A model generated the notes under the pieces. The model did not search any database and was not told the DNA's origin. It was given only the letters and a program-made list of their open reading frames with translations. A program made the position numbers and the translations under genes. A stretch of DNA of 64,000 nt from Fundidesulfovibrio magnetotacticus (lineage in GTDB: Bacteria; Desulfobacterota; Desulfovibrionia; Desulfovibrionales; Desulfovibrionaceae), in assembly GCF_013019105.1 (NCBI RefSeq), contig NZ_BLTE01000001.1:496001-560000 (forward strand), read 5' to 3'. The number at the start of each line of letters is the position of its first letter. Within the stretch, counting starts at the first letter, position 1. This document shows positions 11,798 to 52,011 of the stretch, piece after piece.

Positions 11798-13378
11798 ATG
11801 GGTTTCCGGTTGCGCGTCGCGCTCATGCTCTGCTGTCTCCTGCTGCCGCTCCAGGCCCTTGCCGCCGGGAACGAGCTGCGTTTCTCCTGGCAGTCCAACT
11901 GCGGGCCGCTCAACCCGCACATGTACTCGCCCAACCAGATGTACGCCCAGAACATGCTCTACGAGCCCCTGGTGAAGTACGCCCGCAACGGCGACATCGT
12001 GCCGTGGCTGGCCGAAAAATGGACCGTCTCCTCCGACGGCAAGACCTACACCTTCACCCTGCGCAAAGGTGTGCGCTTCTCCGACGGCACGCCCTTCGAC
12101 GCCCAGGCCGTGGTGAAAAACTTCGAGGCCGTGCGCGCCAACCTCAAGCGGCACAAGTGGCTCGAACTGGTCAACCAGCTTGATGTCCTCGAAGCCCCCG
12201 CGCCCGACACCTTCGTCATGAAGCTCAAGAGCGCCTACTACCCGGCGCTCCAGGAACTCGCCCTCATCCGCCCCCTGCGCTTCCTCTCCCCCGCCGCCTT
12301 CCCCGACTCCGGCAACACCGCCGACGGCATCAGGAAGCCAGCCGGAACCGGCCCCTGGCTCCTGGTGGAGTCCCGCCTGGGCGAATACGACGCGTTCAAG
12401 CGCAACGACAACTACTGGGGCCCCAAACCCGCCATCGAGAAGATCACCGTGCGCGTCATCACCGACCCCAACTCGCGCCTCACCGCCTACGAAACCGGCG
12501 AGATCGACCTGATCTACGGCTCCGGCGGCCACGCCTCGGGCCAGATCGGCATGGACGCCTACCAACTCCTCGCCAAAGACCCCAAGAACGCCGCCTCAGT
12601 CTCCGGCCCCCTGGGTACCCGCGCCCTGTGCCTCAACTCCGGGCGCGGCCCCACCGCCGAACTTGCCGTGCGCCAGGCCGTGTCCCACGCAGTGGACAAG
12701 GAAGCCCTGGTCAAGGGCGTCTTCCTGGGTGTGGAACAGCGCGCAGACACCCTCTTCGCCCCCTCCATCCCCTACTGCGACCTCAAGCTTCCCCCCTTCG
12801 CCTTCGACCGCGCCAAGGCCGCCAAACTCCTCGACGACGCGGGCTGGAAACTCCCCCAGGGCGGCAAGGTGCGCCAGAAGGACGGCAAGCCCCTGGAAAT
12901 CGACTTCTGCTTCGTTGGCAACGACGCCCTCCAGAAAACCATCGCCGAACTCATGCAGGGCGAACTCGCCAAGGTGGGCATCGCCGTGAAACTCGTCGGC
13001 GAAGAGCAGGACGCCTTCGGCAACCGCCAGAAAGACGGCGACTTCGGTTTCATCTTCAACGACACCTGGGGCCCCCCCTACGAGCCCCACGCCATGGTCG
13101 GCTCCATGCGTTCACCATCCCACGCCGACTACCAGGCCCAGGTCGGACTGCCCATGAAGGCCGACATCGACGCCAAGATCAGCAAGGTCTTCGAAACCAC
13201 CGACATCGCACAACGCCAGGCACTCTACACCGACATCCTGACCACCCTGCACCAGCAGGCCGTCTACCTGCCCCTCACCTACATGACCAACATCATGGTC
13301 CACGGGAAAAAGCTGACAGACAAAGGCTTCGGCCCAACCAAAAGCGAAATCCCCTTTGAGGCCATGGCCTGGAAATGA
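11798..13378 (+). CDS. nikA: Nickel ABC transporter, periplasmic nickel-binding protein
   Basis: This 526-residue SBP family 5 protein captures Ni2+ (probably as a chelate) in the periplasm and passes it to NikBC. A Sec signal peptide MGFRLRVALMLCCLLLPLQALAAG is followed by GPLNPHMYSPNQMYAQNMLYEPLVKY, nearly the NikA family start (CGPLNPH, YEPLVKY). Further NikA-like blocks are SAYYPALQELALIRPLRF, GTGPWLLVESRLGEYD, YETGEIDLIYG, RADTLFAPSIPY and the C-terminal TWGPPYEPHAMVGSMRSPSHADYQAQ. The ATG at 11,798 is preceded by GGGGA. An upstream in-frame ATG would spoil the signal peptide. Codons end mainly in C, unlike nikB. Confidence 0.95.
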   Translation: MGFRLRVALMLCCLLLPLQALAAGNELRFSWQSNCGPLNPHMYSPNQMYAQNMLYEPLVKYARNGDIVPWLAEKWTVSSDGKTYTFTLRKGVRFSDGTPFDAQAVVKNFEAVRANLKRHKWLELVNQLDVLEAPAPDTFVMKLKSAYYPALQELALIRPLRFLSPAAFPDSGNTADGIRKPAGTGPWLLVESRLGEYDAFKRNDNYWGPKPAIEKITVRVITDPNSRLTAYETGEIDLIYGSGGHASGQIGMDAYQLLAKDPKNAASVSGPLGTRALCLNSGRGPTAELAVRQAVSHAVDKEALVKGVFLGVEQRADTLFAPSIPYCDLKLPPFAFDRAKAAKLLDDAGWKLPQGGKVRQKDGKPLEIDFCFVGNDALQKTIAELMQGELAKVGIAVKLVGEEQDAFGNRQKDGDFGFIFNDTWGPPYEPHAMVGSMRSPSHADYQAQVGLPMKADIDAKISKVFETTDIAQRQALYTDILTTLHQQAVYLPLTYMTNIMVHGKKLTDKGFGPTKSEIPFEAMAWK

Positions 13379-13413
13379 CGGTCCGGGACAACGCGACAGG
13401 CAGGTCGGGGGAG

Positions 13414-13830
13414 GAGCCTCCGGCGGCCAGGGCTCTGCCCTGGACCCGGCAGTTGCGGCGCGGGTTTCACCGGCTACGGCGTCGCCGGACGGGCGGCCGT
13501 GGCGCTGCGCGCCAGGGGGTCGGTTCAATGTCTTTGTCTTCGGATTTCATGGGTAATTCCTTGTTCATCGCCGCTTGCGGCGATGGCGGTCCGCCGGGAT
13601 AAGCGCTGCTTTGAGCGCGTTCCCGGCGGGTGTCTGCTGCTGTGCTTTGGGCGTTTCCCGTTCCGGGTCACGCCCAGGGCCACCCGGAACCGGGACACGA
13701 CGGCGTAGCCGGTGAAGCCCGCGAAGCCGTTGCGGGGTCTGGGGGGATCATCCCCCCAGTGGGTCCAGGGCGGAGCCCTGGCGGGAGAGTGCAGAGAGGG
13801 CAGCGCCCTCTCTGCCCGCCGGAGGCAACT
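13414..13830. repeat. Composite repeat mosaic between nikA and nikB
   Basis: A 510-bp gap splits the nik operon. It contains, in order: a minus-oriented module (about 13,414-13,476), a small hairpin GGCGCTGCGCGCC (about 13,500-13,512), an 81-bp core (13,554-13,634), and a plus-oriented module (about 13,706-13,826) with GGGGGGATCATCCCCCC and CCAGGGCGGAGCCCTGG palindromes. The same order, orientation and core recur at 43,558-44,092. No open frame here encodes a recognisable protein. Confidence 0.8.
13554..13634 (+). repeat. 81-bp repeat core, copy 1
   Basis: Identical in length to 43,805-43,885 with only three substitutions. It contains the hairpin ATCGCCGC-TT-GCGGCGAT (13,567-13,584) and a second stem CCGCCGGGA / TCCCGGCGGG enclosing AGCGCT... 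GAGCGC. Two of the three differences between copies fall on paired positions 13,571 and 13,580 and keep the pair (C-G here, T-A in copy 2). This supports a selected fold. Confidence 0.85.
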
Positions 13831-13887
13831 TCCCTAGACGCGACGGTGGCGTCTGCGCGAAACAAACATCAACCCAAAGGATACTTC

Positions 13888-14835
13888 ATGGCACGCTACA
13901 TCCTTGGCCGCCTGGCGATGCTGCCGGTGATCCTGCTGGCGGTGTCGCTGGTGGTGTTTTTGATCCTGCGGATGGCGCCGGGCGATCCTGCTCAGTCGTG
14001 GCTGCGGATATCGCAGATTCCGCCCACGGAGGAGAACCTTGTCATGGCGCGGGAGTTGTTGGGGTTGGACCGGCCGTTGCCGGTGCAGTACGCCCTGTGG
14101 CTGGAGAAGGCGTCGCGTCTTGATTTCGGCCGTTCGTACGTGACGGGCCGCCCCGTGATGGACGAGATCCTGTACTACCTGCCTGCCACGTTGGAGCTGG
14201 CGGGGGCGTCGCTGTTGATCACCATGGGCTTGTCCGTGCCGTTGGGCGTGCTGGCGGCTCTCAGAAAGGACAGGCTGCCGGACCATCTTACGCGGGCCAT
14301 GGCCTTCGCTGGGGTGTCCATCCCCAATTTCTGGTTCGGGTTCCTGCTTGTGTGGCTGTTCTCCATGGAGTTGGGCTGGCTGCCGCCGCTGGGCCGGGGC
14401 GGCTGGGAACGCCTGGTGATGCCCGCGTTCTCGCTGGCGCTCATGTCGCTGGCGGTAAACACGCGGCTTATCCGGGCGAGCATGCTGGAAACCATGCACC
14501 AGCGGTATGTGTTGTATGCGCGGGCGCGAGGCGTTGGCGAGGGCGCGGTGGTGTGGCGCCACATGTTCGTGAACGCGCTTATCCCGATTTTGACGGCAAC
14601 AGGGATGCATGTGGGCGAGCTTCTGGGGGGCGCGGTGGTGGTGGAGAGCGTCTTCTCCTGGCCCGGCGTGGGCCGTTTCGCGGTGGGGAGCATCTTCAAC
14701 AGGGATTTCCCGGTGCTCCAGTGCTTCATGCTGGTGATGACCACCATCTTCGTGGTGTGCAACCTGGCGGTGGACGTGGCCTACGCCGTAGCCGACCCGA
14801 GGATGCGCCTGGGCGGCGCGGGAGGCAGGCCGTGA
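13888..14835 (+). CDS. nikB: Nickel ABC transporter permease NikB
   Basis: This 315-residue inner-membrane permease opens with MARYILGRLAMLPVILLAVSLVVFLILRMAPGDPA, the standard first helix and APGDPA loop of DppB/NikB permeases. About six transmembrane segments follow. The EAA-type coupling loop is ARARGVGEGAVVWRHMFVNALIPILTATG near residue 215. NikB assignment rests on position between nikA and nikC. Many G-ending codons (GCG, GTG, TTG) contrast with nikA. The stop overlaps the nikC GTG start (GTGA). It sits 58 bases after the composite repeat. Confidence 0.92.
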   Translation: MARYILGRLAMLPVILLAVSLVVFLILRMAPGDPAQSWLRISQIPPTEENLVMARELLGLDRPLPVQYALWLEKASRLDFGRSYVTGRPVMDEILYYLPATLELAGASLLITMGLSVPLGVLAALRKDRLPDHLTRAMAFAGVSIPNFWFGFLLVWLFSMELGWLPPLGRGGWERLVMPAFSLALMSLAVNTRLIRASMLETMHQRYVLYARARGVGEGAVVWRHMFVNALIPILTATGMHVGELLGGAVVVESVFSWPGVGRFAVGSIFNRDFPVLQCFMLVMTTIFVVCNLAVDVAYAVADPRMRLGGAGGRP

Positions 14836-19338: not shown

Positions 19339-19365
19339 GCGTGGCGGCGGGCGGCACGGCCGACG

Positions 19366-19440
19366 TGAAAGAAGCCTCCGGCGGCCAAAGGGCTGCGCCC
19401 TCTGGACTCCCTCGTTGCTTCGCGACGGCGGGTGATCCGC
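19366..19440 (-). repeat. Single module of the GC-rich repeat family
   Basis: GCCTCCGGCGGCCAAAGGGC followed by TGCGCCCTCTGGACTCCC and TTGCTTCGCGACGGCGGGTG matches the minus-oriented modules at 13,414 and 43,558 but lacks the 81-bp core. The rest of the 270-bp gap between livJ and the DUF486 gene shows only the livJ terminator. Confidence 0.6.
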
Positions 19441-38482: not shown

Positions 38483-39511
38483 TCAAATAAAAGGCCTCAC
38501 ATAGTCTGAACCGAGACAGCAATGCTCACACTCCTTCAACACAGGAAAACTAGACACAAAATCAGACCTTAACGCCTTGAACACCCCACCATTCCATACA
38601 TCAACATCTTTATATATATTGCCATAGCGTGGATTTGCTGGCGTGGCCAAACAACACGGAAAAAGATTGCCATGTCTATCGATAAATACGGCAATCGACG
38701 GCTGAGGGCAGTGCCTACGGGACACGGGAACCAGAGGCGACGGCAACGAAAGACTTATCTTCTTCCCATAGCGACGCTTAAGCTCCAAAAAATACTCAAT
38801 GATATGCGAATCACCGTCTGTAATGATAGAGGAAATATCATCAGGAGACGGATCACCTCCCTGTTGCGGCAAAAAATTCTGAATAACTATGCTGTTCGCC
38901 TTCATATCCAGTGCAGAAACGATAACATCCTCAGCCTCCAAGTATGTCTCCCTGGTCACCCAGTGTGACAAACACACGGAAACCTTGGAATTCTTACTCC
39001 TAAGCAATTCCATGGCCTCAAACTGACGGCCCTTATGCTCATTATAAACACTAATCTGGATCGCATCCACCGGAGACTTTGCCAACTCATCTATTCGTTG
39101 GCCAATCAGAAGAGCGTTCGTCGGGAACATCGTCAACTTGCTGTCTCGATGCGCCATCCAAATCATTTCGAAAAGATCACGATGAACAAGTGGCTCACCG
39201 CCAACAAAAGACACTCTGACGGCATCCCTCGAAAAGTCAGACTTCAACAACCTATCAAAATCTGAAACCGTAAAATCCATATCCGCAAATTCGCGCGAAT
39301 TAACACACCGGCTAAAACACTTCGCACACCTGATATTACACTTGAATGTCACAAAGACACCGACACTTACCGGGTTGTACCGCAGAACTTTTTGCCTGCA
39401 TCCACAGACACAGTAATTATATGCAAATTTTGCGGCATTCACGACTTGAGACGGACGAGGCATACGACGCAAAATCTGCGAAGAAAGCTTAAGAGCTTCA
39501 ACAAAATTCAT
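38483..39511 (-). CDS. Radical SAM protein with SPASM-like C-terminal cysteines, foreign composition
   Basis: This 342-residue radical SAM enzyme has the cluster motif C58-x3-C62-x2-C65 (FKCNIRCAKCF) and VSFVGGEPLVHRDLF, the GGEPL SAM-binding block. C-terminal cysteines HCPQPSIAVFIDRHGNLFPCCLA and KECEHCCLG resemble a SPASM or twitch auxiliary cluster region used in peptide modification or maturase enzymes. Three extra cysteines sit at the N-terminus (CVCGC). The gene is AT-rich, unlike everything nearby. ATG at 39,511 is preferred over a GTG two codons upstream because AGGGG is at the right distance. No peptide substrate or partner gene was found nearby. Confidence 0.85.
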   Translation of the reverse strand: MNFVEALKLSSQILRRMPRPSQVVNAAKFAYNYCVCGCRQKVLRYNPVSVGVFVTFKCNIRCAKCFSRCVNSREFADMDFTVSDFDRLLKSDFSRDAVRVSFVGGEPLVHRDLFEMIWMAHRDSKLTMFPTNALLIGQRIDELAKSPVDAIQISVYNEHKGRQFEAMELLRSKNSKVSVCLSHWVTRETYLEAEDVIVSALDMKANSIVIQNFLPQQGGDPSPDDISSIITDGDSHIIEYFLELKRRYGKKISLSLPSPLVPVSRRHCPQPSIAVFIDRHGNLFPCCLATPANPRYGNIYKDVDVWNGGVFKALRSDFVSSFPVLKECEHCCLGSDYVRPFI

Positions 39512-40063
39512 CGCCACCCCTAATCACTAACACTATTGATTTGTTTTCTTTTATGGACCATACTCAAAAAATCGCAGCAAATCAATTGGATGACAGCCCG
39601 CGAGGCGCCCACTTGCACATTACGGCCTGCCCCGCTGTTATCGGATCATTGCAGCGGTCCAAGACTTCTCGGACAGGCACGCCGCTTGATTCAGACCGCA
39701 CTGGCTACCTCCCGTCTGCTTTGTTCTGGCTTGTTCCAGCGTTCGGTAGCCGTGCCGTCCAATGCGCCACTGCCGACTGCAGATGTCTTTGAAGGCCAAG
39801 CGGGCGAGGCACAGATCCTCGACCGCCAGGAAACACCGCACCCCGAGCAGGTTTTTACTGAGGATGCGTACGACGCGTTCCGCGATGCCGACGCCTTCCG
39901 GCACGCTCCCTTCGGATTGGCTTGGGATTCCTGTCTTGCGCTCCTAGCGGTTTCCGGCGCGCCCTGTCCAGCCGGAACTTTCCGGCACGCCTGGACACTG
40001 TAAAGCCCCGCCGGGGAGGGCGCGCGGAACGTCGCGCACGCCATCGCTCGCGCAAAACCAAAG
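39512..40063. other. Gene-poor segment between the radical SAM gene and tRNA-Lys
   Basis: Two partial open frames on opposite strands (plus 39,536-40,003; minus about 39,691-40,100) show no family and no ribosome-binding site. The right half is more GC-rich than the left. A minus-strand reading with a C-x2-C (TCSGCGV) might be a decayed gene. I recognise nothing here. Confidence 0.35.
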
Positions 40064-40103: not shown

Positions 40104-40179
<76 letters not shown>

Positions 40180-40395: not shown

Positions 40396-41451
40396 ATGAC
40401 TACCATTCTGGGACTCAGGTTCCGGGAGAACGGCCAGATATACTACTATTGCGCGCCCAACCAGGTGATTCTGGCCGGGCAGCATGTCCTGGTCAAGACC
40501 GATCAGGGACCGGCCATGGCACAGGTGGCCCTCCTGACCGAAAACCTCCCGCAGGACGTGGAGCCGACGGAGCTCAAGCCCATCCAGCGCCTCGCCGAAC
40601 AGGAGGACCTCGTGCAGCACGAGGAGAACAGTCTCCTCGCCCGCGAAGCCATCCGTCACTGTCGGCGCTGCATCTCCCAGCGCAATCTCGACATGAAGCT
40701 CGTGGACGTGGAGATCCTCCTCGACCGCTCCAAGATGATCTTCTACTTCACCGCGCCGGGACGCATCGACTTCCGCGAGCTCGTCAAGGACCTCGTCAAG
40801 GCTTACCGCACCCGCATCGAGCTGCGCCAGATCGGCGTGCGCCACGAGACGCAGATGCTCGGCGCCATCGGCAACTGCGGGCAGATGTGCTGCTGCGCAC
40901 GGTTCATCCGCAAGTTCCAGCCCGTCACCATCAAGATGGCCAAGGAACAGAACCTCTTCCTCAACCCCACAAAAATCTCCGGCATGTGCGGCAGGCTTCT
41001 CTGCTGCCTGGCCTACGAACAGTCCACCTACGAGGAATTCCAGCGCCGCTGCCCCAAGATCGGCAAGAAATACCAGACCAACCAGGGCCCCGTGAAAGTC
41101 CTGCGCTCCAACATCTTCCGCGAGACCATCTCCGTGTTCAACGAGCACGGCGAAGAGCGGGAACTCACCCTGGAGGAATGGAAGGCCATCGCGGGCGAAA
41201 CCTGGACGCCCTACATTCCGCCGCAGCAGCAGCCGCAACAACGGCCCAGCGCGCCACCCAGGCCCAGGCCCGAACCGGAATCCGCCCCGGACCAGTCCGA
41301 CACCGCCACCCACGGCGACGACGGCGAACTCGTGGCCGCCGGACTCCCCGACGACCCCTCCCAGCCCAGGCCCAAGCGCAAGCGCAAACGCAAGCCCAAG
41401 CCCAGACGACAGGACGCGCCCCAAGCACCGCACGCCGAACCCGGAGAATGA
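40396..41451 (+). CDS. ricT: PSP1/RicT (YaaT) family protein
   Basis: This 351-residue protein is of the PSP1/RicT family, which in Bacillus subtilis binds an Fe-S cluster and stimulates RNase Y-dependent RNA processing. Cys motifs GQMCCCARF and CGRLLCCLAYE lie in the core (about residues 160-215), the family hallmark. A 75-residue tail rich in Pro, Arg and Lys (PRPKRKRKRKPKPRRQ) is extra. ATG at 40,396. The stop overlaps the metG start (ATGA). The ricT-metG pairing is common in bacteria. No RNase Y is visible here. Confidence 0.88.
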   Translation: MTTILGLRFRENGQIYYYCAPNQVILAGQHVLVKTDQGPAMAQVALLTENLPQDVEPTELKPIQRLAEQEDLVQHEENSLLAREAIRHCRRCISQRNLDMKLVDVEILLDRSKMIFYFTAPGRIDFRELVKDLVKAYRTRIELRQIGVRHETQMLGAIGNCGQMCCCARFIRKFQPVTIKMAKEQNLFLNPTKISGMCGRLLCCLAYEQSTYEEFQRRCPKIGKKYQTNQGPVKVLRSNIFRETISVFNEHGEERELTLEEWKAIAGETWTPYIPPQQQPQQRPSAPPRPRPEPESAPDQSDTATHGDDGELVAAGLPDDPSQPRPKRKRKRKPKPRRQDAPQAPHAEPGE

Positions 41452-43397
41452 CCGTGGAACGCTTCTACATCACAACGCCCATCTACTACGTGAACGCCAG
41501 GCCCCACCTGGGCCACGCCCACACCACCATCCTGGCCGACGCCATGGCCCGCTTCCACCGCGTCATGGGCCACGACGTGCGCTTCCTCACCGGCACGGAC
41601 GAGCACGGCGACAAGATCGTCAAAGCCTCCAGCGCCGCCGGGCAGACCCCGCAGGCCTACTGCGACGCCATCAGCGCCCTCTTCAAGGATCTCTGGCCCC
41701 AGCTTGGCGTCGAGTACTCCCAGTTCATCCGCACCACGGACCCCGAGCACAAGCGGCTTGTCCAGAAGGCCCTGCAACAGGTCTATGACGCGGGCGATAT
41801 CTACTTCGGAGAATACGGCGGGCACTACTGCTTCGGATGCGAACGTTTCTACACCGAGAAGGAGCTCGTGGACGGCCTCTGCCCGGACCACAAGATCAAG
41901 CCCGAATACATCGCGGAAAAGAACTACTTCTTCCGCATGGCCAAGTATCAGCAGTGGCTCCTGGACCACATCAAAGCCAACCCGGAATTCATCCGCCCCG
42001 AGCAGTATCGCAACGAGGTGGTGGCCCTCCTGGAGTCCGGCGCGCTCGAAGACCTCTGCATCTCCCGTCCCAAGTCCCGACTGGACTGGGGCGTGGAACT
42101 GCCCTTCGACAAGGACTACGTGGCCTACGTCTGGTTCGACGCGCTCCTCAACTACCTCACCGCCCTGGGCTGGCCCGACTCCAAAACCATGGCCGACTAC
42201 TGGCCGCACACCAACCACCTGATCGCCAAGGACATCCTCAAGCCCCACGCCGTGTTCTGGCCCACCATGCTCAAGGCCATGGGCCTCGAACCCTACCAGC
42301 ACCTCAACGTGCACGGCTACTGGCTCGTCAAGGACACCAAGATGTCCAAGTCCCTGGGCAACGTGGTGGAACCCCTGGCCCTCAAGGACAAATACGGCCT
42401 CTCCGGCTTCCGCTACTTCCTCCTGCGCGAGATGACCTTCGGCTACGACTCCTCCTTCTCCGAAGAGGCCCTCTGCGCCCGCTTCAACTCCGACCTCGCC
42501 AACGACCTGGGCAACCTCTTCAGCCGCTCCCTGGCCATGACCCACAAATACTTCGACGGACGCATCCCCCAGGCCGGACAGGGCGGACCCGACGAAGACG
42601 AACTGCGCTCCATGGCCAAGGAAGCCTGCCTCAACTTCCAGCGCCTCTTCGAACGCTTCCAGACCGCCAAGGCCCTCGACTCCCTCTGGGAACTCGTGCG
42701 CGGCCTCAACAAATACATCGACACCCAGGCCCCCTGGACCCTCTACAAGGAACAGAACCCCTCGCGCCTGGCCACCGTGATGGTCCACGTGCTCGAATGT
42801 CTGCGCAAGGTGGCCGCACACCTGCTCCCCGTCATGCCCGAAGCCGCCGCCGCCATGCTCGAACAACTGGGCTGCAACCCCGACCAAGCCGCCATCAACC
42901 TCCCCGTGGAAGCCGAAGGATGGGGCCAACTCACCCCCGGAACCCTCGTGGCCAAGGCCTCCAACCTCTTCCCGCGCATCGAGGCCCCCGCCGCCCTCGC
43001 GCCCGAAGCGGCCCCCAAAGCCAAAGCCCCCAAGCCCCAGCCCGCACCGGCAGCCCCCGCCGGCCCCAAGGAACCCATCGACTTCGAGGACTTCCAGAAG
43101 CTCGACCTGCGCGTCGCCACCGTGCTCGAAGCCACGCCCGTGCCCAAGGCCGACAAGCTCCTCCTCGTCAAACTCGACGCGGGCGATCCCGAACCCCGCC
43201 AGGTGGTCGCGGGAATCGCCGAGTTCTGGAAGCCCGAAGACCTCGTGGGACGCCAGGTCGTCGTGGTCGCCAACCTCAAACCCCGCAAACTGCGCGGCGT
43301 GGAATCCCAAGGCATGATCCTCGCCGTCAAACGCGAAGGCGGCCTGGAACTGCTGCGCCCTTCCGAGCCCGTCATCCCCGGCAGCGCCGTCTCCTGA
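41448..43397 (+). CDS. metG: Methionyl-tRNA synthetase with fused C-terminal tRNA-binding domain
   Basis: This 649-residue class I synthetase charges tRNA-Met. HLGHAH (residues 20-25) and KMSKS (about 297-301) form the ATP-binding signature pair. The CP1 zinc-knuckle region (YCFGCERF... LCPDHK) has two visible Cys pairs of the one-knob form. After the helical anticodon-binding domain an Ala/Pro/Lys-rich linker leads to an OB-fold tRNA-binding domain (FEDFQKLDLRVATVLEATPVPKADKLLLVKLD..., about residues 545-649). The terminator at 43,427 follows. Confidence 0.95.
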   Translation: MTVERFYITTPIYYVNARPHLGHAHTTILADAMARFHRVMGHDVRFLTGTDEHGDKIVKASSAAGQTPQAYCDAISALFKDLWPQLGVEYSQFIRTTDPEHKRLVQKALQQVYDAGDIYFGEYGGHYCFGCERFYTEKELVDGLCPDHKIKPEYIAEKNYFFRMAKYQQWLLDHIKANPEFIRPEQYRNEVVALLESGALEDLCISRPKSRLDWGVELPFDKDYVAYVWFDALLNYLTALGWPDSKTMADYWPHTNHLIAKDILKPHAVFWPTMLKAMGLEPYQHLNVHGYWLVKDTKMSKSLGNVVEPLALKDKYGLSGFRYFLLREMTFGYDSSFSEEALCARFNSDLANDLGNLFSRSLAMTHKYFDGRIPQAGQGGPDEDELRSMAKEACLNFQRLFERFQTAKALDSLWELVRGLNKYIDTQAPWTLYKEQNPSRLATVMVHVLECLRKVAAHLLPVMPEAAAAMLEQLGCNPDQAAINLPVEAEGWGQLTPGTLVAKASNLFPRIEAPAALAPEAAPKAKAPKPQPAPAAPAGPKEPIDFEDFQKLDLRVATVLEATPVPKADKLLLVKLDAGDPEPRQVVAGIAEFWKPEDLVGRQVVVVANLKPRKLRGVESQGMILAVKREGGLELLRPSEPVIPGSAVS

Positions 43398-43539: not shown

Positions 43540-44092
43540 CTAGGCAGTCGGGGAATATGCCTCCGGCGGCCAAAGGGCTACGCCCTTTGGAATCCCTTTC
43601 CGCTTCGCGGGCTTCACCGGAAGGTCTGTGTTGCCGGAGCCGGGCCTTTGCGCGGGGAGAGGCCCGGCTCCGGCTGGCAAGACCCTTGCGGCTGCGCCGC
43701 CTGTCGCGCGGGAATTCGCGCAAAGCCGCGAATCCCCGCTCGGGGGGCCGTGGCGCTTCGCGCCAGGGAATCGAGCAAGAATCAATTCTTGGATTTTAAG
43801 ATGATAATTCCTTGTTCATCGTCGCTTGCGACGATGGCAGTCCGCCGGGATAAGCGCTGCTTTGAGCGCGTTCCCGGCGGGTGTCCCTGAAGCCCCTGGA
43901 CAACGGCGGCCCAGCCGGGAGAAGAAAGCCCCACACCCCACTCCTGCCTTTGCCGGTGAAGCCCGCAAAGCAATTGCGGGGTCTGGGGGGATCATCCCCC
44001 CAGCGGGTCCAGGGCGGAGCCCTGGCGGGTGCAGGGCGGAACCCTGCCGGGTCCGGGCGGAGCCCGGCTGGGTGCCGGGCGGAGCCCTGGCA
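43540..44092. repeat. Composite repeat mosaic between metG and the MFS gene
   Basis: A 550-bp mosaic with the same architecture as 13,414-13,826: a minus-oriented module (about 43,558-43,624), GGCGCTTCGCGCC hairpin (about 43,752-43,764), 81-bp core (43,805-43,885) and a plus-oriented module (about 43,951-44,092). The last runs out into extended GGGCGGAGCCC-type palindromes. It ends about 17 bases before the MFS start codon, so it supplies or displaces the promoter of that gene. Confidence 0.8.
43805..43885 (+). repeat. 81-bp repeat core, copy 2
   Basis: Hairpin ATCGTCGC-TT-GCGACGAT at 43,818-43,835. Relative to copy 1 the bases 43,822 (T for C) and 43,831 (A for G) change together and keep the pair. 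One further difference (A for G at 43,839) lies outside the stem. Confidence 0.85.
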
Positions 44093-44108
44093 AGAGAATG
44101 GAGGCTGC

Positions 44109-45491
44109 ATGGACGAAGTAGAGCGCCGGTCGTTGGAGGCGCAGGCTGCGGTTGGCCTGGCGTCGTTTCTCACGCCGTTCTTGTACGGGGCGTTGTCGGT
44201 GGCCATGCCGACGATGAGCGTGGCGTTCGGGTTCACGCCGCGCGAGATGGCCATGGTGATGATGGTGCATCTGCTGTTTTCCACGGCGTGCATGCTGTCG
44301 TTCGGGCGTTTGTCGGACTTCATCGGCCGCAAGGGCCTGTTCATGACCGGGAGCGTGCTGTTCACGGCGAGTTCGCTGCTTGGCGGGCTGGCGCAGGACG
44401 CCTGGACGTTGCTGGCGGCCAGGGCGGTGCAGGGCGTGGGCGACGCCATGACGTTCGGGGTGGCGGGTGCGATCCTGTTCGGGATCGTGCCGCCGGAGCG
44501 CACGGGCCGGGCGGTCGGTTTCAACGTGATGTTCGTGTTCGCGGGTTTGACGTTGGGGCCGCTGGTGGGTGGCGTGCTCACGTCGTGGTTGTCCTGGCGC
44601 GTGACCTTTTTCGTGTGCGCGGCGGCGGGCGTCGCGGCATGGTGGCTGATCCGCCAGGGCTACCGGGAGCGGCCGGGACGCGGCGCGGGGGCGATGCCGT
44701 GGGGCGACGCGGCGTGGTTCACGGCCTCGATGCTGGGGTTGATCTTCGGCGTGTCGACGCAGCCGTCGTGGCGCGGGGCGGCGTTGGCGACCGTTTCGGG
44801 ATGGATGCTGGCGCGTTTTGCGCGGGGCCAGTCCGGGCGGTCGCATCCGCTGGTGGACGTGGACTACCTGGGGTGCAACCGGCCGTTCGCGTTGTCCAAC
44901 ATGGTGTCGGCGCTGGGGTACGCGGCGGCGTTCTCCACAAGTTTCCTGTTGAGCCTGCTCATGCAGACGGTGCTGGGGATGGCGGCGCACGACGCGGGTT
45001 TTCTGCTGCTGGTGCAGCCGCTGGTCCAGGCGCTGGCCTCGCCGCTGGCCGGGCGCGTGGCAGACCGGCTCTCGCCCGGTCGCGTGAGCGCGGCGGGGCT
45101 GATGGTGCTGGGTGCGGGCCTCCTGGTGGTGGCCTGGGAGGGAAGCGCGGCCACGGCGTGGTGGCTCGCCGGGGTGCAGGTGGTGCTGGGGCTCGGATTC
45201 GCGCTCTTCGTGTCGCCCAACTTCCAGGCTGTGATGTCCAACGCGGACGCAGGACACAAGGGGATGGCCTCGGGCCTGATGGCCACCATGCGCGGCCTGG
45301 GCATGTGCGCTTCCATGTCGGCCACGGGCCTGCTCTTAGCGTTGCTGGCAGGCGGCGCGGGGCAGGCGGTCCCGGTGGATGCTTTGCGGGCGTGCTTCGT
45401 GCTGTTCGGCGTGGTGGGGCTGGGCGCTGCGTGCCTTTCGTGGCATACGGGAGGCGTGGTGTCCACATGCGCGGAGGAGGCGGCGGAATGA
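44109..45491 (+). CDS. MFS transporter, DHA2-like drug:proton antiporter type
   Basis: This 460-residue major facilitator has about fourteen membrane helices. The motif A region reads GRLSDFIGRKGLFMTG (about residues 68-83) and the motif C-like stretch GLTLGPLVGGVLTSWLSW is present, as in DHA2 antiporters. GGAGG precedes the ATG at 44,109. The codon choice has more G- and T-ending codons than its neighbours, like nikB. Its stop overlaps the ATG of the beta-propeller gene (ATGA). The substrate is not predictable. Confidence 0.88.
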   Translation: MDEVERRSLEAQAAVGLASFLTPFLYGALSVAMPTMSVAFGFTPREMAMVMMVHLLFSTACMLSFGRLSDFIGRKGLFMTGSVLFTASSLLGGLAQDAWTLLAARAVQGVGDAMTFGVAGAILFGIVPPERTGRAVGFNVMFVFAGLTLGPLVGGVLTSWLSWRVTFFVCAAAGVAAWWLIRQGYRERPGRGAGAMPWGDAAWFTASMLGLIFGVSTQPSWRGAALATVSGWMLARFARGQSGRSHPLVDVDYLGCNRPFALSNMVSALGYAAAFSTSFLLSLLMQTVLGMAAHDAGFLLLVQPLVQALASPLAGRVADRLSPGRVSAAGLMVLGAGLLVVAWEGSAATAWWLAGVQVVLGLGFALFVSPNFQAVMSNADAGHKGMASGLMATMRGLGMCASMSATGLLLALLAGGAGQAVPVDALRACFVLFGVVGLGAACLSWHTGGVVSTCAEEAAE

Positions 45492-51879: not shown

Positions 51880-52011
51880 ACCATCACCCCTGCGAGGGGT
51901 GATACCCGCGAAGCCATTGCGGGGTCTGGGGGGATCATCCCCCCAGCGGGTGCAGGGCAGCACCCTGCCGGGTCCAGGGCAGAGCCCTGGCCGCCGGAGG
52001 CTCTTGCCTCC
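51880..52011 (+). repeat. GC-rich repeat module between thiH and thiG
   Basis: A plus-oriented module (51,901-52,003) with GGGGGGATCATCCCCCC, GGGTGCAGGGCAGCACCC and CCAGGGCAGAGCCCTGG palindromes ends in the hairpin GGAGGC-TCTT-GCCTCC (51,996-52,011). It directly precedes the thiG stop codon. It does not contain the 81-bp core. Confidence 0.75.

Follow-up and report, generated by a model that had tools for sequence, protein, structure and literature searches.

A palindromic mosaic repeat, BIME-like in organisation and with a genus-restricted core, between genes of Fundidesulfovibrio magnetotacticus and its congeners

The window analysed here is a stretch of 64,000 nucleotides of the Fundidesulfovibrio magnetotacticus genome (contig NZ_BLTE01000001.1, positions 496,001 to 560,000), in which a composite repeat lies between a solute-binding-protein gene and a permease gene (copy 1), and again between a tRNA synthetase gene and a transporter gene (copy 2; Table 1). 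Genes were called with a home-made codon score rather than a standard gene finder. A preliminary description of this DNA had singled out two 81-bp cores with only three differences, two of them within one 8-bp hairpin, and this was confirmed position by position. The cores are 96% identical and differ at 13571 C/43822 T, 13580 G/43831 A and 13588 G/43839 A, the first two differences being opposite partners in the stem of the hairpin HP1, CATCG(C/T)CG-CTTG-CG(G/A)CGATG. The GGCGC-loop-GCGCC hairpin that had been claimed for both copies was located in each, and the inverted left and forward right modules proved to be real in our repeat comparison (I3, D1, D3, D13).

Table 1. Composite repeat copies in the window and the genes on either side of them
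Feature	Position	Strand	Description
Upstream gene, copy 1	11798..13378	+	SBP_bac_5 solute-binding protein
Left (inverted) arm module, copy 1	13411..13473	+	GCCTCCGGCGGCC-hairpin-GGACCCGGC ... GGTTTCACCGG; start word family-wide
HP-B, copy 1	13501..13513	+	GGCGC-tgc-GCGCC; conserved in copy alignment
Core, copy 1	13554..13634	+	81 bp of the preliminary description
HP1, copy 1	13566..13585	+	8-bp stem, C-G pair 13571/13580
HP2, copy 1	13591..13629	+	9-bp outer stem, internal loop, inner stem
Right (forward) arm module, copy 1	13709..13826	+	CCGGTGAAGCCCGCGAAGC ... GCCCGCCGGAGGC
Downstream gene, copy 1	13888..14835	+	BPD_transp_1 permease
Upstream gene, copy 2	41448..43397	+	Class I (methionyl-type) tRNA synthetase
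Left arm module, copy 2	43557..43619	+	
HP-A, copy 2 (L018)	43708..43739	+	GCGGGAATTCGCG-CAAAGC-CGCGAATCCCCGC
HP-B, copy 2	43752..43764	+	GGCGC-ttc-GCGCC
Core, copy 2	43805..43885	+	HP1 43817-43836 (T-A pair 43822/43831), HP2 43842-43880
Right arm module, copy 2	43953..44103	+	Several hairpin units, without terminal GCCGCCGGAGGC
Downstream gene, copy 2	44109..45491	+	MFS transporter

The element is larger than was first described. In the copies checked, the repeated block begins about 163 bp upstream of HP2, and in some copies similarity extends beyond this block. It runs in the order HP-A, HP-B, an AT-richer stretch, HP1, HP2 and a GTGTCTGCTGC tail, where HP-B is the GGCGC..GCGCC hairpin and HP-A, a stem with a CAAAGC loop, is a feature that had escaped notice and is missing from copy 1 of the window. 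Inverted arms frame the block, GCCTCCGGCGGCC..GCTTCGCG to its left and CGCGAAGC..GGCCGCCGGAGGC to its right, and the core forms a cassette between them; the flanking modules noted earlier are a family-wide arm repeat. The element is a composite of palindromic modules, some of them inverted, dispersed between genes. An internal loop and the apical-loop word CTTTG are conserved in most of 30 aligned cores. Both cores of the window fold better than their dinucleotide shuffles on either strand (z -4.2 to -6.0), with 0 of 200 shuffles folding as well in each of the four folds; since the core folds well on both strands, folding alone cannot tell which strand, if any, acts as RNA. A 35-nt pattern of HP2, searched with at most 3 mismatches, has two matches in the window and none in 100 shuffles, which is beyond chance expectation.

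We designate the genome that holds the window G000 and its six congeners G001-G006. With a 121-bp query based on the copy-1 core, at least 28 matches were found in G000 among the best 40 of 51 candidates, which were scored. A covariance model based on 30 cores (18 from G000, 12 from congeners) detected in G000 21 full-length copies at 88 bits or more, one copy cut by a contig end and three degenerate ones. Five core matches of G000 lie at contig ends. The last 96 bases of contig C2 are the same as the first 96 of C32, and C15 and C6 share an identical overlap of 73 bases; given these overlaps, the split copies are probably single, which leaves about 20 intact copies. Contigs C2/C32, C15/C6 and C30 break inside the element, and the element probably limits the assembly. 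The search of the genome and its relatives that had been proposed earlier thus yielded, besides the copies of G000, model matches in all seven genus genomes, 2-7 per congener, within a 149-genome family sample. Under stricter filters applied to the best candidates of each genome, the core model gave no match in the other 142 genomes of the family sample, and none beyond the genus in a sample of 247 genomes from the order. Copy counts from the genome searches are lower bounds, the best 40, 33 or 19 candidates per genome having been scored. The core is a genus-restricted family with lineage-specific amplification. Phage and plasmid collections, searched by distant blastn with positions 43700-43890 of the window, gave no match, and we identified no publication on this element in the open-licence literature on REP/RAYT, BIME, Desulfovibrio intergenic repeats and Fundidesulfovibrio.

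The arms have a far wider range. Their start word TGCCTCCGGCGGCCA is present in 89 of 149 family genomes and in 30 of 44 genera, with up to 64 exact copies per genome; the reversed word, used as a control, gives two single hits. A word search located HP2 in 40 of 44 loci. Of these, 38 carry the left arm word (up to 2 mismatches) or, separate from HP-B, its inner word, and the right inner arm word is present in 34, several of the misses being loci cut by contig ends. Arms in called gaps are mostly single: 400 kb of G000 hold 11 arm-bearing gaps, none with both arms, and 400 kb of G002 hold 27, two with both, in which the arms face each other around a middle that has no core. The hairpin content of the arms varies from copy to copy. 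Tandem runs of the start word at about 110-bp spacing were also noted (for example G073:C1 893384, 893495 and 893606), as were core-less arm modules behind other genes of the window, at 493-796, 19351-19424 and 51898-52008.

The copies are intergenic: only one (L075) overlaps a called gene. At the 19 intact G000 sites with both neighbours, the flanking genes are convergent at 11, tandem at 8 and divergent at none, against 21 convergent, 78 tandem and 25 divergent among 124 background gaps longer than 100 bp in 400 kb of G000 (Fisher p 3e-4 for convergent, 11/19 vs 21/124; p 0.045 for divergent, 0/19 vs 25/124). These 19 sites derive from 25 loci, the degenerate L023-L025 being excluded, L004/L008 and L012/L022 merged, and L009 having no upstream gene; L064, where the downstream call is a weak 78-nt ORF, and L075, where the call overlaps the element, were not counted as divergent. 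At 17 of the 19 sites the core reads in the same direction as the upstream gene; with nothing merged or dropped, this holds for 20 of the 22 G000 loci that have such a gene. Among the relatives, an upstream gene was called in 17 of 19 loci and is in sense with the core in 8 of these 17, so the strand bias does not characterise the genus as a whole. Varied Pfam families are represented among the 28 neighbour proteins that were scanned, and gene-specific regulation was dropped on this account.

Orthologous sites could be compared for presence and absence of the core. For the solute-binding-protein gene that precedes copy 1, the six congeners gave no match at E 1e-60, and orthologs exist in other genera, with 77% identity in G030. 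The spacer of copy 1 measures 509 nt, against 154-215 nt without the core word in four other-genus orthologs; the fifth (L163) has no usable gene call. Loose two-mismatch arm words occur in two of these four core-less spacers, and some other-genus spacers show, by eye, GC-rich hairpins of their own. The solute-binding-protein gene of this ABC transporter operon (11798-14835) is itself patchy, with a match at E 1e-100 in 14 of 44 sampled genera, its own included. Downstream of RNase H, the composite is present in G000, and both the arms and the core are missing in G002 and G004, which share the following gene (50% identity). None of the other four congeners has a core at this place, G006 having a right arm and G003 a left arm truncated at the end of its contig; in G001 (L159) an HP2-like word at the gene stop looks like chance. 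Downstream of purH, the composite of G000 has its core reversed. No core occurs there in G005 and G006, with a left arm plus an HP-A-like hairpin, or in G001 and G003, with a left arm. G002 and G004 have none of arm, HP-A and core at this site, except for one loose right-arm word in G002, and one loose HP2-like word in G006 lies far from the arm. The purH match in G006 (L153) contains one in-frame TAG.

Five shared sites, A to E, were established by comparison of the flanking genes. Site A, between a radical SAM gene and ALAD, has a core in all seven species, forward in G000, G001 and G003 and reversed in G002, G004, G005 and G006; the cores of G001 and G003 are weak model matches (36 and 38 bits) that lack HP1 and retain HP2. 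The core is also reversed between G000 and G002 at site C (porphobilinogen deaminase), and at sites B, D and E the orientation agrees. On the best tree of the two proteins flanking site A, orientation changes twice, and with the deep branches of this tree being weak, a single change is possible. The cores at site A do not form one clade: this was rejected by the AU test for all seven (p-AU 2.9e-13) and also without long-branch rows (p-AU 2.2e-53), and holding the site-A cores of G000 and G006 together was rejected as well (p-AU 0.011). Without long-branch rows, the 21 G000 copies make up one side of a branch with support 97/96; with the degenerate rows included, the best tree splits them, and holding them together was not rejected (p-AU 0.28). 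Within G000, the copy closest to the site-A core differs from it by 4%, and each ortholog of that core differs from it by 15% or more. The core trees, from which L022 (cut) and L024 (degenerate) were excluded, and from the long-row-free version also L071, L072, L023 and L025, rest on about 72 columns, and the species tree on one gene pair, all from draft genomes. The cores were shown to group by genome rather than by site. This homogenisation is not general, as sister species still share matching cores, G002 with G004 (site A) and G001 with G003 (sites A and E), and as the copies of G006 differ from each other by more than 20%. Sites A and C adjoin tetrapyrrole genes (ALAD and porphobilinogen deaminase) and one more G000 site adjoins a CobB/CobQ-like gene, a possible hint that is not common to the other scanned neighbours. 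At site A of G004 (L075), the radical SAM gene seems to enter the arm without the C-terminal end of its orthologs, which appears to be a fusion, a truncation or an assembly error.

We consider that the element is probably a non-autonomous, non-coding, palindromic mosaic repeat of BIME type, spread and homogenised at the DNA level and tolerated behind genes. A genus-specific core cassette (HP1 and HP2, usually after HP-A and HP-B) lies between inverted copies of an older, family-wide arm repeat, and amplification has taken it to about 20 gene-end sites in G000. The copies would spread and overwrite each other at the DNA level, perhaps by recombination or gene conversion between arms and/or by a putative enzyme acting on single-stranded hairpins, and the inverted arms may let the core flip. 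The 3′ position would be where such hairpins are tolerated, and there they may end transcripts passively or act as attenuators, for instance between the gene for the solute-binding protein and that for the permease. Alternatively, the orientation flips could be independent insertions at favoured sites, and the genome-wise grouping could come from lineage-specific selection by a trans factor. A site filled in seven species is explained by a purely selfish repeat only through retention or repeated arrival. More specifically, and in our estimate rather unlikely, the family-wide inverted arms at gene ends would act as docking homology for a core cassette that has no transposase of its own, and recombination would copy the core from site to site, flip it in place and replace old copies by the version current in the genome. 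If this is true, it would be an invertible, concertedly evolving intergenic element.

The preliminary description had read the element as mobile-like or structured and as keeping its fold. Its mobile-like character stands, with many copies, lineage-specific amplification and core-less sites in relatives, and so does a palindromic arrangement of the DNA; a fold kept by selection does not follow, the HP1 switch being confined to G000 and possibly of single origin. Among the 30 aligned cores, the HP1 pair is C-G in 17 and T-A in 13 and is never broken, and all 13 T-A cores belong to G000 (16 of 21 G000 copies in a longer alignment). On a tree built without its two columns, the pair changes three times on the best tree, and the well-supported branches force one change. 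The covarying pair is real, yet it may be one event multiplied by amplification. Double changes were found in one or two of 20 pairs; the second pair depends on the alignment of genome-specific loop lengths and is absent from the structure used in the shuffle count, where the named pairs with double changes (1 of 20) are no more than shuffles give. With identical rows counted once, 96.2% of cells form standard pairs, and none of 500 shuffles reaches either the observed number of doubly changed cells or the observed covariation score. Similar covariation scores are obtained when the partners are displaced by -3 or +1 columns, with pairing then down to 55% or less. The palindromes are real, and selection on an RNA fold as the force that keeps them is only weakly indicated.

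Stem symmetry was also followed outside the core. In G002 and its kin, the stems of HP-A vary greatly from site to site and are still complementary; the non-Watson-Crick cells of HP-A are 18 A-C, 1 G-U and 4 others, the A-C cells being mostly one shared G000 state, which by eye amounts to separate events of about 1 wobble and about 4 A-C. A T-rich sequence follows HP-A in several relatives. Several of the same composites contain a second family of near-perfect hairpins, whose arms measure roughly 45 bp each, whose loop CGATTTGAAGACGAT is constant and whose stems are very different (loci L154 (~1303), L022, L023, L026, L130, L132, L140, L038 and others, all outside the window). Exact CGATTTGAAGACGAT loop words number 10 in G000, 40 in G002, 17 in G004, 4 in G006 and 0 in G001, G003 and G005, with 1 in the 142 other family genomes. 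In 38 copies of this family, from which 3 more sequences with fewer than 30 paired positions had been dropped, the 5′ arms are on average 52% alike and still pair, and the distinct mismatch events before the first gap are 14 G-U, 30 A-C and 42 others. Selection on the scored strand as RNA should favour G-U, and with no G-U excess an RNA function is not supported; the A-C excess on the scored strand equals a G-U excess on the opposite strand.

Such symmetry may be due to mutation bias alone, with template switching correcting palindromes that have no selected structure. The mechanism is published, and template switching between palindrome arms is described as able to make double changes in one step (PMC8794818). 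Stems that vary by site and remain complementary in HP-A, 5′ arms as divergent as those of the second hairpin family that still pair, and mismatches not enriched in wobbles on the scored strand are all consistent with it. Nevertheless, the core has conserved bases in its loop and internal loop, for which symmetry repair alone gives no explanation, and the A-C excess would be a G-U excess if the opposite strand were the relevant one. We hold mutation bias alone to be possible, if somewhat unlikely.

It is unlikely, in our judgement, that the repeat is a structured RNA element of 3′ untranslated regions, for example a terminator, a stabiliser or a processing site, with a selected fold. The strong folding would be expected of such an element, as would the conserved internal loop and CTTTG word, the standard pairing and a covariation score above that of every shuffle, the sense orientation at most G000 sites, and the HP-A of relatives, where T-rich sequence follows stems that are very different yet complementary. 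However, fewer than half of the relatives' sites are in sense, and at shared sites A and C the orientation of the core differs between species. Moreover, HP-A has no excess of G-U over A-C on the core strand, the HP1 covariation may be one event and slid partners score similarly, and the neighbours are varied. Rfam at gathering score returned no family for the element, with tRNA as the only match in the window; at E up to 5, six loci gave 17 sub-gathering matches to miRNA, sRNA and other families, several of them on long hairpins.

Searches for a mobilising enzyme and for traces of transposition bear on the two remaining explanations. The RAYT family PF01797 (Y1_Tnp) is absent at E 0.01 from all seven genus genomes, six of which are 96-100% complete, and present in 6 of 14 controls; the transposase search covered Y1_Tnp only. 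Target duplications, which had been proposed as a check, turned out not to be general in 12 composites, the mean longest shared flank word being 3.75 vs 3.47 in 132 mismatched pairs; 6-7-nt shared words occur in 2 of the 12, and 6 nt was reached by 0.8% of controls. As neither Y1_Tnp nor a general target duplication was found, the mechanism of spread is one that we infer. A MITE, derived by deletion from an insertion sequence whose transposase moves it in trans, would account for the inverted arms framing the composite and for presence and absence at orthologous sites. We regard it as quite improbable, since there is no general target duplication and the arms, mostly single and variable in hairpin content, are unlike fixed terminal repeats.

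HP2 may resemble the REP palindrome of E. coli. The tags that define REPs in PMC3733652 were looked for in 30 cores: there is no invariant GTAG, the bases before HP2 being GGC and then AGT, GGT, TGG, GAT, AGG or AAT, and no invariant CGTC beside HP1 or HP2, CGTC being found inside HP1 in the T-A variant only, where it is paired. No two core matches on one G000 contig are closer than 8 kb, so that the assembled contigs contain no gene with a core close by on either side. A REP or REPIN of a RAYT system, the transposase of which was lost or lies in an assembly gap, would fit short imperfect palindromes with conserved internal-loop bases, intergenic and in mosaics with inverted modules, and is already a weak and highly doubtful reading given that Y1_Tnp is missing from the genus, that neighbouring core matches are so far apart and that no invariant GTAG or CGTC flanks HP2.

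The BIME-type repeat that we favour thus has known counterparts. Like the BIMEs and REPs of enterobacteria and pseudomonads, it consists of short imperfect palindromes, intergenic and in mosaics with inverted modules, some of them high-copy; unlike them, it has no RAYT gene found and no GTAG tag, its core copies number only about 20, its arms are large and modular and its core flips at shared sites. REPs flanking RAYT genes are described in PMC2817692. CGTC-tagged REPs, which according to their authors are palindromic repeats apparently without a dedicated transposase (PMC3733652, the main text of which does not contain the term "Desulfovibrio"), are similar in both respects, but the element has no invariant CGTC at the stem base. 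Enterobacterial RU-1/RU-2 and MITEs, described as intergenic repeats of roughly 100-200 bp that are regarded as mobile (PMC2759123), resemble it in kind, whereas it has no fixed terminal inverted repeats and no general target duplication. With no RAYT found, no invariant GTAG or CGTC tag and MITE features generally lacking, we class it as BIME-like in organisation and not as a REP.

The repeat, for which no RAYT was detected, can be traced for presence, orientation and sequence at orthologous sites in seven species, and is a workable system for how RAYT-less REP-like repeats spread and stay alike. It also lets one ask whether paired changes in palindromes reflect RNA selection or correction at the DNA level, and carries the warning that covariation at one pair is weak evidence of RNA function when the palindrome has been amplified.

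Finally, a minor observation concerns another part of the window. A radical SAM/SPASM gene at 38483-39517 on the minus strand lies in a stretch of about 46% GC, against 67% GC in the sampled 400 kb of G000, close to a tRNA-Lys gene (40104-40179, minus strand), and this stretch looks like an acquired segment.
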